Assembly: GCF_000709345.1 (NCBI RefSeq)
Contig: NZ_KL448323.1
Coordinates: 954,242-1,018,241, forward strand
DNA: 64,000 nucleotides
Direction of reading: 5' to 3'
Source: Polaromonas glacialis
GTDB lineage: Bacteria; Pseudomonadota; Gammaproteobacteria; Burkholderiales; Burkholderiaceae_C
Shown in pieces: positions 46,371-53,201 of this stretch. The stretch's first letter is position 1, and each line of letters starts with the position of its first letter. The position numbers and the translations under genes were made by a program. The notes beneath the pieces were generated by a model. It was not told the origin of the DNA. It ran no database searches and saw only the letters and a list, made by a program, of their open reading frames with translations.

Positions 46371-46699
46371 CTGTGTGAGTCCCGGTTGTCCAGCGTTGTC
46401 AGTGTGCTCAGGACTTGATGTGTTGTTGCATGGGCTTCAGGCCGATGCTCAGCTTGAAATTATCGCATTGGGTTTTCGCAAGCCTCAGGTGTGCCGTCTC
46501 CAGTATCGGCGGGTTCAAGACGACAGGCAGGCTGCGCACGGTGTCATAATGCTGCCTGCACATCAAAAGGCAAACGGGTCATGGCTCGGCGGATTATGTT
46601 TCTGCTTATGGTTTTGGCCTCAAGTCTCGACGCGGCTCCACAAGAGCGGGCCAAGAGGCACCCTAGGTATTTCGTTAGAGAAATTCACAAAGGTTCATC
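46371..46699. other. Long leader / divergent control region between sigma-factor gene and ilvB
   Basis: This 329-base gap must contain the promoters of the sigma factor and ilvB. A CATAAT at about 46544-46549 could be a -10 box for ilvB. A plus-strand open frame at 46581 begins with hydrophobic codons but runs past the ilvB start, and no terminator hairpin is present, so I do not call an attenuator. AAAGG lies seven bases before the ilvB start. Confidence 0.4.
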
Positions 46700-48478
46700 A
46701 TGGAAATCAATAAAGCGGAAATCGCTTCCGCAGCAGCGGCATCTGTCCCCACAAATTCTCAAGACCTGCGGGGCGCTGAAATCCTCGTCAAGTCGCTTCA
46801 GGCCGAAGGTGTCAAGTACATCTGGGGTTATCCGGGCGGCGCTGTTCTTCATATTTACGACGCTTTCTACAAGCAGGACTCGATTCAGCATGTGCTGGTG
46901 CGCCACGAACAGGCCGCAGTGCATGCCGCCGATGGCTATGCCCGCGCCACCGGCGATGTGGGCGTGGCCCTGGTCACCTCAGGCCCTGGCCTGACCAATG
47001 CCGTGACCGGAATTGCGACCGCCTACATGGACAGCATTCCGATGGTCATCATCAGCGGCCAGGTGCCGACGGCCGCCATCGGCCTGGATGCCTTCCAGGA
47101 ATGCGACACCGTGGGCATCACACGGCCCATCGTCAAGCACAATTTCCTGGTGAAGGATGTGCGGGACATGGCTGCCACCATGAAAAAGGCTTTCCATATC
47201 GCCCGCACCGGCCGGCCCGGTCCGGTGGTGGTCGATGTGCCCAAGGACGTCTCTTTCAACAAGACCCTGTACACCGGTTACCCCAAGAGCGTCGAGATGC
47301 GGTCTTACAACCCGGTTCGCAAAGGTCATGCCGGCCAGATACGCAAGGCGCTGCACCTGCTGATGGCGGCCAAGCGGCCCTATATCTATACCGGCGGCGG
47401 CGTGCTGCTCAGCAATGCATCTCAGGAACTGCGCACCCTGGTGGACATGCTGGGCTATCCCTGCACCAACACGCTGATGGGTTTGGGCGCCTATCCGGCC
47501 AGCGACCGAAAATTCCTCGGCATGCTGGGCATGCACGGGACGCTCGAAGCCAACAATGCCATGCAGAATTGCGATGTACTGCTGGCCGTCGGCGCGCGTT
47601 TTGACGACCGCGTGATCGGCAACCCCAAGCATTTCGCCCAGAACGAACGCAAGATCATTCACATCGACATCGATCCTTCGAGCATTTCGAAGCGTGTCAA
47701 GGTGGACATTCCCATCGTCGGCGATGTCAAGGATGTGCTGACCGAACTGATCGCCATGATCCGCGAGTCGGGCCTCAAGCCCGACTCCGATGCGCTGGGC
47801 GGCTGGTGGAGCACGATTGACGAGTGGCGCAGCCGCGACTGCATGAAATACAGCCTGGGCTCGGGCGACGTGATCAAGCCGCAGTATGTGGTCGAGACGC
47901 TCTGGAACATGACCAAGGACGCCGATACCTACATCACGTCCGATGTGGGCCAGCACCAGATGTGGGCCGCGCAATACTACAAGTTCGACGAGCCGCGCCG
48001 CTGGATCAATTCCGGCGGTCTAGGCACCATGGGCGTCGGCATTCCCTACGCCATGGGCATCAAACTCGCCAAGCCGGATTCGGAAGTGTTCTGCATCACC
48101 GGTGAAGGCTCGGTGCAAATGTGCATCCAGGAGCTTTCGACCTGCCTGCAGTACAACACGCCGATCAAGATCGTTTCGCTCAACAACCGCTACCTCGGCA
48201 TGGTGCGCCAGTGGCAGGAAATCGAATACGCCGGCCGCTACAGCAGCAGCTACATGGACGCGCTGCCCAATTTCGTCAAACTCGCCGAAGCCTATGGCCA
48301 CGTCGGCATGCTGATTGAAAAACCGCAAGACGTGGAACCGGCGCTGCGCGAGGCGCGCAAGCTCAAGGACCGCACGGTGTTCATGGACTTCCGCACCGAT
48401 CCGACGGAAAACGTGTTCCCGATGGTCAAGGCCGGCAAGGGCATCACGGAAATGCTGCTCGGGTCTGAAGACCTCTGA
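46700..48478 (+). CDS. ilvB: Acetolactate synthase large subunit
   Basis: This 592-residue thiamine-diphosphate enzyme catalyses the first committed step of valine, leucine and isoleucine synthesis. Motifs: GYPGGAVLHIYDAF with the N-terminal FAD/ThDP contacts, the catalytic Glu in LVRHEQAAVHAADGYARA, PGPVVVDVPKD, and the ThDP-metal motif GEGSVQMCIQELSTCLQYNTPIKIVSLNN near residue 470. The ilvH regulatory subunit follows 107 bp later and ilvC after it. Confidence 0.96.
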   Translation: MEINKAEIASAAAASVPTNSQDLRGAEILVKSLQAEGVKYIWGYPGGAVLHIYDAFYKQDSIQHVLVRHEQAAVHAADGYARATGDVGVALVTSGPGLTNAVTGIATAYMDSIPMVIISGQVPTAAIGLDAFQECDTVGITRPIVKHNFLVKDVRDMAATMKKAFHIARTGRPGPVVVDVPKDVSFNKTLYTGYPKSVEMRSYNPVRKGHAGQIRKALHLLMAAKRPYIYTGGGVLLSNASQELRTLVDMLGYPCTNTLMGLGAYPASDRKFLGMLGMHGTLEANNAMQNCDVLLAVGARFDDRVIGNPKHFAQNERKIIHIDIDPSSISKRVKVDIPIVGDVKDVLTELIAMIRESGLKPDSDALGGWWSTIDEWRSRDCMKYSLGSGDVIKPQYVVETLWNMTKDADTYITSDVGQHQMWAAQYYKFDEPRRWINSGGLGTMGVGIPYAMGIKLAKPDSEVFCITGEGSVQMCIQELSTCLQYNTPIKIVSLNNRYLGMVRQWQEIEYAGRYSSSYMDALPNFVKLAEAYGHVGMLIEKPQDVEPALREARKLKDRTVFMDFRTDPTENVFPMVKAGKGITEMLLGSEDL

Positions 48479-48585
48479 ACGCATCGCCCTTTTAATTATT
48501 CACCCCGTCAACTGACGAATCTATTGCCTGCCAAGCCTGCGCATTACCGTGCGCAGGGGAGGGCAGCGAAAAGAGGAATCTTCTT

Positions 48586-50393: not shown

Positions 50394-51206
50394 ATGCATG
50401 ATGGCGAGGAAAACCTGAAAACCGGCACAGAAGTTGTACCGCGCAAGCGGCGCAAAGGCATCTACATATTGCCTAATCTGTTCACCCTCGCTGCGCTGTT
50501 CGGCGGGTTTTACGCCATCGTCATGGCGATGAACGGGCGCTTCGACCAGGCCGCCATTGGCGTATTTTGTGCCATGGTGCTCGACAGCCTCGATGGCCGG
50601 GTCGCACGCCTGACCAATACCCAGAGCGCTTTTGGCGAGCAAATGGATTCGCTGTCGGACATGGTGTCGTTTGGCGCAGCGCCTGCCTTGATCGCTTATA
50701 TCTGGGCACTGACCAGCCTGGGTCGCTGGGGCTGGATTGGCGCTTTTGTTTATTGCGCCTGCGCAGCCTTGCGCCTTGCGCGGTTCAATGTCAACACGGC
50801 CGTGGTTGACAAGCGGTTTTTTCAGGGTTTGCCGTCCCCTGCCGCCGCCGCGCTGGTGGCGGGTTATATCTGGCTGATGAACGACCTGGGAATCAAGGGC
50901 CTGGAGGTGCGCTGGGTTACCTTTGGACTGATGCTGTATGCCGGCCTGACCATGGTCACCAACGTGCCTTTTTATAGCTTCAAGGATGTCCAGATGAAGC
51001 GCAGCGTCCCCTTCGTCGTCATTGTGCTGATCGCACTCGGCATTGCCATCATCAATATTGATCCGCCGACGGTCATTTTCGGCCTGTTCGTGATTTATGG
51101 ACTGTCGGGTTACGTGCTGTACGGCTGGCGCAAGGCCAAGGGTCAGCAGACGAGTGTGATTTCAACCTCTACTGACGAGCCTGACGAACGTGGGCTGCAC
51201 AAATGA
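50394..51206 (+). CDS. pssA: CDP-diacylglycerol-serine O-phosphatidyltransferase
   Basis: This 270-residue membrane enzyme makes phosphatidylserine, the precursor of phosphatidylethanolamine. The CDP-alcohol phosphotransferase motif DSLDGRVARLTNTQSAFGEQ, with D-G-x2-A-R-x8-G-x3-D-x3-D spacing completed by MDSLSD, lies near residue 60. About seven hydrophobic helices follow. It is the type II (Bacillus-like) enzyme. A GAGGAG box precedes the ATG. Its place between ilvC and leuA is usual in related bacteria; a psd gene is not present here. Confidence 0.93.
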   Translation: MHDGEENLKTGTEVVPRKRRKGIYILPNLFTLAALFGGFYAIVMAMNGRFDQAAIGVFCAMVLDSLDGRVARLTNTQSAFGEQMDSLSDMVSFGAAPALIAYIWALTSLGRWGWIGAFVYCACAALRLARFNVNTAVVDKRFFQGLPSPAAAALVAGYIWLMNDLGIKGLEVRWVTFGLMLYAGLTMVTNVPFYSFKDVQMKRSVPFVVIVLIALGIAIINIDPPTVIFGLFVIYGLSGYVLYGWRKAKGQQTSVISTSTDEPDERGLHK

Positions 51207-51225
51207 ATTGTGGTACATTGACCGG

Positions 51226-51279
51226 ATGAAAAAAATTTCGCTAGCACTACTGCTATCTGCCAACGGGCGGAGACGGTAG
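51226..51279 (+). CDS. leuL: leu operon leader peptide (17 residues)
   Basis: The peptide reads MKKISLALLLSANGRRR. Four of five consecutive codons after Ser are leucine, and three of those are CTA, a rare codon in this GC-rich genome, at 51241-51255. The peptide begins 20 bases after the pssA stop and ends 22 bases before a strong terminator hairpin. Leu codons, an early stop and the following alternative hairpins are the standard pattern of ribosome-mediated attenuation. It is too short for normal gene finding. Confidence 0.88.
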   Translation: MKKISLALLLSANGRRR

Positions 51280-51338
51280 CGCACGCGTACACCTGATTTC
51301 CACGGCCCGTTTGCACCAGCAACGGGCCGTTTTTTTTG
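51262..51338 (+). promoter_or_regulatory. Leucine attenuator: antiterminator and terminator hairpins
   Basis: Segment 2, AACGGGC at 51262-51268 inside the leader peptide, can pair with segment 3, GCCCGTT at 51305-51311. Segment 3 can instead pair within ACGGCCCGTT (51302-51311) with segment 4, AACGGGCCGT (51321-51330). The two pairings are mutually exclusive. A ribosome stalled at the Leu codons would leave segment 2 free to form the antiterminator; a ribosome reaching the stop at 51277 would cover it and let the terminator form. Confidence 0.85.
51302..51338 (+). terminator. Attenuator terminator before leuA
   Basis: A perfect 10-bp stem (ACGGCCCGTT with AACGGGCCGT) with a 9-base loop is followed by eight T residues, 131 bases before the leuA start. 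Confidence 0.92.
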
Positions 51339-51468
51339 GTTGCTGGTTTTTATTAATGAAAAACGCATTGCAACTGAAACCTGCAGACAACTGACTCCAG
51401 ATAACCGTCCTCAGCCCTGCTGCATTTTTGCAGTTTGTGCAAACCCCATCCAAACCGAGAAACTTCCC

Positions 51469-53007
51469 ATGACTGACAAACTCATTATTTTCGACACCAC
51501 CTTGCGCGACGGCGAGCAGTCCCCTGGTGCTTCCATGACACGTGACGAAAAACTGCGCATTGCCCGGCAACTGGAGCGGCTGAAGGTCGATGTGATCGAG
51601 GCCGGTTTTGCCGCCAGTTCAAATGGCGACTTTGAATGTGTCAAGGCGATTGCAGAATCCATCAAGGATTCCACCATCTGCTCGCTGGCGCGCGCCAATG
51701 ACCGCGACATTTCGCGGGCCGCAGAAGCGCTGAAGCCGGCCAACTCAGGACGCTTGCATCTTTTTCTGGCGACCAGTGCGCTGCACATGGAAAAAAAGCT
51801 GCGCATGACGCCCGACCAGGTGTTTGAGCAGGCCAGGCTTTCCGTGCGTTTTGCCCGTAACCTCATGGCCGACATCGAGTTCAGCCCCGAAGACGGCTAC
51901 CGCTCCGACCCCGACTTCCTGTGCCGCGTCATCGAGGCGGTCATCAACGAAGGCGCGACCACCATCAATGTTCCCGATACCGTGGGCTATGCGATTCCCG
52001 AGCTCTACGGCAACTTCATCAAGAACCTGCGCGAACGCATCCCCAACAGCGACAAGGCGGTCTGGTCGGTTCACTGCCACAACGATCTGGGCATGGCCGT
52101 TGCCAATTCACTCGCAGGCGTGAAGATCGGTGGCGCCCGGCAGGTGGAATGCACCATCAATGGCCTGGGCGAACGCGCAGGCAATTGCTCGCTTGAAGAA
52201 GTGGTGATGGCCGTAAAAACACGCAAGGACTACTTTGGACTCGAACTTGGCATCGACACGCAGCAGATACTGGCGGCCAGCCGCCTGGTGAGCCAGACGA
52301 CAGGTTTTGTGGTGCAGCCCAACAAGGCCGTCGTGGGCGCCAACGCTTTTGCCCATGCGTCGGGCATTCACCAGGATGGTGTGCTCAAGGCGCGCGACAC
52401 CTACGAGATCATGCGCGCCGAAGACGTGGGCTGGTCGGCCAACAAGATCGTGCTGGGCAAGTTGAGCGGACGAAATGCCTTCAAGCAGCGCCTTCAGGAA
52501 CTCGGCGTGGCGATGGAAAGCGAAACCGACATCAACAATGCATTCATCAAGTTCAAGGATCTTGCCGACCGCAAGAGCGAAATTTTTGACGAGGATATTC
52601 TTGCCTTGGTCAGCGATGAGAGCGTCACCCATAGCAATGAGCAGTACGGTTTTGTATCCTTGTCCCAGCACAGCGAAACCGGCGAGCGACCCCAGGCTTG
52701 CGTGGTTTTCACGGTCGCCGGAAAAGAGGTCAAAGGCCAGTCCGATGGAAATGGGCCTGTGGATGCATCGCTCAAGGCGATTGAGACGCATGTCAAAAGC
52801 GGCGCTGAAATGGTGCTTTATTCGGTGAATGCCATCAGCGGCTCGACCGAAAGCCAGGGTGAAGTGACCGTGCGCTTGCAAAACAGCGGGCGTGTCGTGA
52901 ATGGGGTAGGGTCCGATCCCGATATCGTGGTGGCGTCGGCCAAAGCTTATTTAAGCGCTTTGAACAAACTTCAAAGTAAAGCCGACAGGGTTGCCGCGCA
53001 GGGATAA
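51469..53007 (+). CDS. leuA: 2-isopropylmalate synthase
   Basis: This 512-residue enzyme condenses acetyl-CoA and 2-ketoisovalerate, the first step of leucine synthesis. The N-terminal TIM barrel carries the signatures [17 protein letters not shown] and [14 protein letters not shown] with metal-binding His residues, and [12 protein letters not shown]. The C-terminal regulatory domain (about residues 390-512) binds leucine for feedback inhibition. The ATG at 51469 is used because homology begins there; the in-frame extension to 51340 overlaps the attenuator. Expression is likely controlled by the upstream leader. Confidence 0.96.
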
Positions 53008-53107: not shown

Positions 53108-53143
53108 AAAGTCACGCAAGCTCCTGATATTGCGTGACTTTTT
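53108..53143 (+). terminator. Rho-independent terminator after leuA
   Basis: AAGTCACGCAA pairs with TTGCGTGACTT around a 10-base loop and is followed by a T-run, 100 bases after the leuA stop. It also lies just before pbpG. Confidence 0.9.
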
Positions 53144-53201
53144 CTATTTCTATACACTTCAACCTCTTTCTTTATCGCAACCCAAACAGGCAATATTTAC
53201 C

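Follow-up and report, generated by a model that had tools for sequence, protein, structure and literature searches.

The window, a 64,000-nucleotide (nt) stretch of Polaromonas glacialis DNA, carries the gene for 2-isopropylmalate synthase, leuA, a short distance behind the phosphatidyltransferase gene pssA. In this representative of the Comamonadaceae (Burkholderiales), a short leucine-rich open reading frame (ORF), an intrinsic terminator and several segments that can pair in mutually exclusive ways lie between the two genes (Table 1). The arrangement and its counterparts in related genomes very probably control leuA by ribosome-mediated transcription attenuation in response to charged tRNA-Leu, and chiefly to the tRNA reading CUA. 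By this account a large family of betaproteobacteria would have, in many of its genera, a leucine attenuator unmatched by Rfam before the gene for isopropylmalate synthase.

Table 1. Features of the pssA-leuA region, in window coordinates
Feature	Position	Strand	Basis
pssA (CDP-diacylglycerol-serine O-phosphatidyltransferase), upstream neighbour	50394..51206	+	ORF; NCBIfam TIGR00473 122 bits, cutoff 107
Extended -10 promoter box TGGTACATT	51211..51219	+	Sequence and family conservation; ends six bases 5′ of ATG
Leader ORF MKKISLALLLSANGRRR and stop, proposed leuL, probably leaderless	51226..51279	+	Sequence, family alignment
Control codons CTA GCA CTA CTG CTA	51241..51255	+	Sequence; CTA bias in family leaders
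Segment 1, 5′ side of 1:2 protector hairpin	51247..51261	+	Fold; pairing in 102 sequences
Segment 2, AACGGGC, copy of segment 4; 1:2 partner strand extends to 51279	51262..51268	+	
Segment 3, terminator 5′ arm	51302..51314	+	Antiterminator part is GCCCGTT, 51305-51311
Segment 4, terminator 3′ arm	51319..51330	+	Sequence, fold, covariation
Terminator loop and start of segment 4, ACCAGCAAC, partner of segment 5	51315..51323	+	Covariation
U-tract, eight T	51330..51337	+	Sequence
Segment 5, GTTGCTGGT, 3′ of U-tract	51339..51347	+	Stem kept across loci
leuA, 2-isopropylmalate synthase class I, target gene	51469..53007	+	NCBIfam NF002087 899 bits, TIGR00973 697 bits, both over cutoff

The leader comprises 17 codons from ATG (51226-51228) to TAG (51277-51279), encodes MKKISLALLLSANGRRR and begins after 19 bases that follow the end of the pssA stop codon at 51206. 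Four of the five codons at 51241-51255 specify leucine and three of these are CTA, just as a preliminary description of this DNA had stated from the sequence. That description had also proposed a leuA attenuator in which 51262-51268 pairs either with 51305-51311 or gives way to a terminator at 51302-51330 followed by eight T; these coordinates proved right, its end of the element at 51338 being one base too far, and the proposal is supported by the sequence and by the family loci. The locus combines a short ORF with many codons for the amino acid that the downstream enzyme makes, mutually exclusive antiterminator and terminator stems with segment 2 copying segment 4, and an intrinsic terminator 5′ of the gene, whose 10-base-pair (bp) arms occupy 51302-51311 and 51321-51330. 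The fold of 51226-51340 reaches -45.7 kcal/mol (z -4.2), that of 51290-51340 has a z of -4.4, and in neither case was an equally good fold obtained in 200 shuffles. A simple terminator scan did not report the hairpin, probably because its stem has a bulge.

The choice of leucine codons is highly skewed. CTA makes up 410 of the 770 leucine codons (53%) in 170 leaders, against 4 of 281 (1.4%) in nine ORFs of the window, which supports the earlier suggestion that CTA is the sensing codon. The idea that CTA is present merely to pair with a UAG stop codon was rejected, since its share is alike in leaders ending in TAG (0.54), TAA (0.54) and TGA (0.48). A precedent for CUA as sensing codon is found in the Salmonella leu leader, where replacement of CUA by CUG is described as having lowered the sensitivity of control (PMC1183508, citing Carter 1986).

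Conservation was followed at increasing distance. In a DNA search of 60 relatives and the own genome, 31 of the 36 genomes from the same genus, many of which are incomplete, matched the element at E≤3e-10; G035 gave two matches, and the relatives G007 and G013 matched in this search and are absent from the locus set. Twenty-nine copies including the window's own were aligned, L030 being left out of alignments as it is cut by a contig end, and from them a covariance model was built that runs from leader to U-tract and excludes the promoter and the stretch 3′ of the U-tract. At E≤1, with weak matches included unchecked, the model matched 267 of 299 family genomes and 121 of 133 genera. The 146 family loci that were examined (the 30 best and 116 more) all have E values near or below 1e-7; places listed in G217, G282, G291 and G321 and weaker matches were left out. 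Two loci, L031 and L037, are duplicates of L001 and L017; the pooled codon, Shine-Dalgarno (SD), 4:5 and pssA/box counts omit them, and the 143-locus box-spacing, 146-locus class and 175-locus pssA counts retain them. Three loci (L081, L136 and L176) have no ATG leader, and in L081 and L136 GTG, judged by eye, replaces it at the equivalent place after the -10 box. For structural comparison 102 of 172 sequences, thinned for similarity, were aligned; related sequences are not independent in the covariation tests. The conservation that had been set as a test of the attenuator was found in the examined loci for the leucine codons, the terminator, the segment-2 copy and the place before isopropylmalate synthase. 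Beyond the family, the strong matches of an order-wide search fell in family f10, where L182 and L184 display the same box, ATG, leucine run (leader judged by eye) and class II gene, and where L183 (G602) is a false match within a class II leuA gene. A pattern combining -10 box and leader matched 12 records when the genome collection was searched, and every one of them is from Polaromonas; the record of Polaromonas sp. JS666 (L205) carries the leader pattern.

Three things went beyond the preliminary description: the -10 box with a likely leaderless start, the exchange of LeuA class and the fifth segment. As to the first, a TGNT[AT]NNNT box ends 6-9 nt 5′ of the leader start in 129 of the 143 family loci with an ATG leader (6 nt in 43, 7 nt in 70, 8 nt in 15 and 9 nt in one) and at 10 nt in eight more, so that 137 have it at 6-10 nt and six have no box by this pattern. 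The chance of finding such a box 5-9 nt from a random position is 1.07%; in leaders with several ATG codons the start was picked by -10 spacing as well as leucine content, a choice somewhat biased towards the spacing found. Among 164 loci the variation within the hexamer falls mainly on positions 3 and 5, with very little at positions 2 and 4; positions 1 and 6 were fixed by the search pattern. An SD-like AGGA, GGAG or GAGG at -16 to -4 occurs in 1 of 170 leaders compared with 110 of 173 downstream genes, and none of those 173 genes has the box 5-10 nt 5′ of its start.

Given normal -10 spacing, the transcripts of most loci would have their 5′ end at the AUG or no more than two bases away from it. 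Transcription in the window is predicted to start at or adjoining A51226, and because of the motif, its spacing and the near-absence of SD sequences the leader is probably leaderless. Alternatively, the leader could be translated from longer transcripts, arising by read-through from pssA or from an upstream promoter, through reinitiation or SD-less initiation, the box then being a protein-binding site. The pssA stop codon 19 nt 5′ of the leader ATG is near enough for reinitiation, and a sigma-70 scan found no two-hexamer promoter within 50900-51700, the -10 box having been recognised from conservation instead. This alternative is nevertheless very unlikely, given the 6-10 nt spacing of the box in 137 of 143 loci, the -10-like pattern of hexamer variation and the presence of the box at that distance whether or not a pssA-like end lies upstream (127 of 131 and 36 of 39 leaders, respectively). 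The more than 170 loci would provide a large natural set tying probable leaderless initiation to a regulatory outcome.

The upstream neighbour also bears on the purpose of the terminator, which lies about 95 nt 3′ of the pssA stop codon and would stop read-through from that gene. That the hairpin merely ends pssA transcription and the leader ORF is accidental is, however, scarcely credible: the leucine codons, the -10 box and the segment-2 copy are conserved, an upstream copy of the 3′ arm is needless in a simple terminator, and for 39 of 175 leaders the 250 nt upstream yielded no pssA-like end. A filter for pssA read-through, as the preliminary description suggested, is possible at the loci with a DERGLH-like pssA end within that distance (136 of 175), but it cannot be the main role since 36 of the 39 leaders lacking such an end keep their -10 box.

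All 146 strong matches examined have isopropylmalate synthase 3′ of them, 83 of class I and 63 of class II, class I being closest to LeuA of the window and class II closest to LeuA of L004, a TIGR00970 protein. Both classes occur within Polaromonas (20 and 9 of 29 copies), and the pssA-like end precedes both (80 of 103 loci with a class I gene, 56 of 72 with a class II gene). Distantly related synthases of class I and class II share one kind of leader and in many cases pssA as a neighbour, which suggests that the enzyme gene was replaced while the switch was kept, often at one and the same chromosomal place; the RNA switch would then outlast the gene it controls. One genome, G100, has two copies, L048 before a class II gene and L088 before a class I gene.

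The pairings differ in how they are conserved. In the 102 diverse sequences 94.1% of the cells of the 3:4 terminator are paired, and double changes occur in 56 cells against 18.5 (standard deviation (sd) 2.8) after shuffling; none of 500 shuffles reached 56. Within Polaromonas alone covariation of 3:4 is nil because the stem is nearly invariant, and the wider set is needed. At least five T in eight follow the terminator at 129 of 173 loci. The 2:3 core is likewise paired in 94.1% of cells, ACGGGC being present as segment 2 in 63 of 102 sequences and ACGGGC or GCGGGC as segment 4 in 96 of 102. In the 1:2 hairpin the CUA:UAG helix is paired in 94.1% and the middle helix in 75.8% of cells. In folding with a ribosome footprint whose front edge was assumed to lie 15 nt beyond the P-site codon's first base, RNA ending after segment 3 adopts 2:3 for a stall at any of the first three leucine codons, and 3:4 forms with the ribosome on the stop codon.

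From these elements a course of events can be proposed. The extended -10 box just 3′ of the pssA end would direct a transcript starting at, or not more than about two bases from, the leuL AUG, on which a ribosome would load at the 5′ end without an SD sequence. With plentiful leucine the ribosome would reach UAG and cover segment 2, so that the 3:4 hairpin could form and transcription stop in the U-tract. With leucine short, a stall on the CUA/CUG run would mask segment 1, letting 2:3 form before segment 4 is synthesised, and polymerase would read through into leuA. If the leader were not translated at all, 1:2 would form and 3:4 terminate. In the read-through RNA a further segment, segment 5, would pair with the terminator loop and 3′ arm, making 2:3 plus 4:5 the counterpart of 1:2 plus 3:4.

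This fifth segment consists of GTTGCTGGT (51339-51347), beyond the U-tract and complementary to ACCAGCAAC (51315-51323). Even within Polaromonas the 4:5 stem has 14 double-change cells against 3.0 (sd 1.5) in shuffles, with 0 of 500 shuffles as high. A stem of at least 7 bp is found in 136 of 172 loci, compared with a mean of 55.8 (maximum 66) when partners are swapped between loci and of 14 (maximum 23) when the downstream sequence is shuffled; a stricter score is reached by 127 of 172 loci against 44.0 and 4.5, respectively (L161 failed the segment-4 pattern in these counts). In 119 loci the loop is unlike that of the window, and 77 of these pair strongly with the partner from their own locus, against 29.1 when that partner is replaced by one of the common type. 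Variant pairs include ACCAGCAGC/GCTGCTGGT, CCAGCGAC/GTCGCTGG, CCCGCAAC/GTTGCGGG, AAACGCAGC/GCTGCGTTT and ATTCGCAAC/GTTGCGAAT. The stem of at least 7 bp precedes both LeuA classes (74 of 101 class I and 62 of 71 class II loci).

Terminators in general were taken as background, using 42 terminator-like sites from the window and twelve Polaromonas loci. All 11 leuA leader terminators have a 4:5-type score of 21-23, and of the 31 other sites one reaches 18; the stricter score is attained by all 11 leader copies and by one of the 31. A weaker 4:5-type stem of at least 7 bp is present at 11 of those 31, several being copies of the post-leuA terminator, so the 7-bp criterion alone has a sizeable background. 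The post-leuA terminator itself (window 53111-53145) can form a loop/3′-arm stem with downstream sequence, GATATTGC with GCAATATT, which has 6-8 bp in several Polaromonas and may be due to chance.

By its geometry 4:5 excludes the upper part of 3:4 and is compatible with 2:3, and segment 5 would be part of the fold of the read-through RNA. One could instead suppose a second, overlapping terminator that catches polymerases past the first, since in the window TTTTTATT lies directly 3′ of 4:5. The loop of 4:5 is long, however, a terminator compatible with 2:3 would cancel antitermination, and at least five T in the 6 nt after segment 5 are present in just 13 of the 136 loci with the stem; with no U-tract in most loci this explanation was mostly rejected and is considered unlikely.

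An effect of segment 5 on leuA translation deserves more weight, though it too is on balance doubtful. It could be exerted in cis, 4:5 shaping the region before the start codon, or in trans, by pairing with released leader RNA, and 4:5 covariation suits both equally. From the end of segment 5 to the start codon the median distance is 28 nt in 62 class II loci and 30.5 nt in 74 class I loci, that from segment 4 to segment 5 being variable, and for a trans role there is precedent in Sinorhizobium, where a released trp leader RNA that starts at the AUG of its ORF is described as acting in trans (PMC7298713). On the other hand, segment 5 of the window lies 121 nt from the leuA start codon, a short untranslated region alone restricts where segment 5 can be placed, and intramolecular pairing should outcompete pairing in trans. 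The suggestion that all five segments form one switch under a leaderless leader peptide, off as 1:2 plus 3:4 and on as 2:3 plus 4:5, with segment 5 coupling the transcription decision to the fate of leuA mRNA, is put forward tentatively. If true, segment 5 would lock the read-through fold and set the region before the leuA start, or alternatively would be a trans docking site for leader RNA released when leucine is plentiful.

Several observations weigh against the attenuator or against the part proposed for segment 5. No covariance-model match at E≤1 was obtained in 32 of 299 family genomes. The 2:3 pairing hardly covaries, with four double-change cells against 0.4 in shuffles, and a version slid by two columns has eight; in the upper helix of 1:2 no more than 61.8% of cells are paired, and sliding that hairpin gives as many double changes. 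Segment 2 would be partly covered by a ribosome stalled at the last leucine codon. When the RNA ends in the U-tract, 3:4 is part of the minimum free energy fold at all stall positions tried; with 3:4 favoured once segment 4 is made, antitermination must be kinetic. The 4:5 stem has fewer than 6 bp in 27 of 172 loci. Once the RNA includes segment 5, 2:3 plus 4:5 (-35.9) is more stable than the best 3:4 fold (-33.9) with the ribosome at the first leucine codon, is about equal at the second (-31.5 and -31.8) and loses at the third (-30.1 against -31.7) and fourth (-23.4 against -30.1); the values are -12.9 against -23.0 with the ribosome on the stop codon and -40.1 against -46.7 without a ribosome. 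Segment 5 is moreover made after the U-tract, so that in a simple kinetic model the choice to terminate is unaffected by it.

Attenuation by a leucine leader with CUA codons is textbook knowledge, represented by Leu_leader RF00512 (leuL of Escherichia coli and Salmonella). The E. coli control scores 145.8 bits with this model; neither the window nor any of ten family loci reaches its gathering score, and 50900-51700 gave no match to it at E≤10. No other Rfam family matches the leuA leader at gathering score, and permissive matches in 50900-51700 (CC0196, suhB, sR39 and sR17), all below their gathering scores, were taken as chance. The leader ATG of E. coli has an SD-like GGAG upstream, unlike nearly all leaders of the Polaromonas family, and within 60 nt downstream of the E. 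coli terminator its loop and arm have no complement that would give a stem longer than 4 bp, so that the covarying segment beyond the U-tract is absent from that attenuator.

Similar leaders have been described elsewhere. In Streptomyces lividans leuL, trpL and ilvL are reported as leaderless, and the short leucine-rich leader peptides before leuA and leuS resemble those found here; one of these two, apparently that of leuA, is described as having no typical intrinsic terminator (PMC8079986). Actinobacterial leuA is described as carrying the LEU pseudoknot element, unlike the locus analysed here (PMC1262725). The attenuator RNA of Sinorhizobium meliloti trpL (rnTrpL), which begins at the leader AUG and is made by transcription attenuation, is akin to what is proposed for leuL; it differs in sensing tryptophan, and the released RNA and peptide have trans roles there (PMC7298713). 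Campylobacter has a LeuL with rare leucine codons (PMC3847290). An RNA regulon survey covers four Rfam amino acid leaders (His, Leu, Thr and Trp) and suggests their gamma-proteobacterial origin (PMC3766115). The main text of a broad terminator survey leaves leuA unmentioned (PMC2965389), and a start-site paper on Burkholderia cenocepacia describes leaderless transcripts, its main text having no word beginning with 'leu' and no 'attenuat' (PMC4603805). No Comamonadaceae leuA attenuator was recognised among the literature matches listed, a partial coverage with little of it aimed at post-terminator stems; the fifth segment is the part least likely to have been described already.

In other Burkholderiales families a different and longer leucine-rich leader was found at 14 of 52 leuA loci (L219, L222, L224, L225, L226, L230, L233, L234, L247, L250, L252, L255, L256 and L260), lying 6-10 nt after TATATT or TATAGT, a spacing with a chance of 2.4% by mononucleotide shuffles. 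These leaders often end in LLLRxxR (LLLRPAR or similar), and in most of these 14 loci the stop codon is followed by a C-rich stretch. Eight were read by eye and displayed no hairpin with a T-run. Together with the C-rich stretch this would suit Rho-dependent attenuation, and these leaders are perhaps leaderless with attenuation of that kind.

The window contains a second, separate element of related purpose. An ilvH RNA motif (RF02993, 98 bits), likewise a cis-regulatory RNA of a branched-chain amino acid gene, lies at 48514-48581 just 5′ of ilvN, so that one branched-chain amino acid cluster holds this motif and the leu attenuator as two different RNA regulators. An ATG ORF, MARRIMFLLMVLASSL..., at 46581-46994, is rich in isoleucine, leucine and valine near its start and overlaps the start of ilvB in another frame; it is a possible candidate for an ilv leader.
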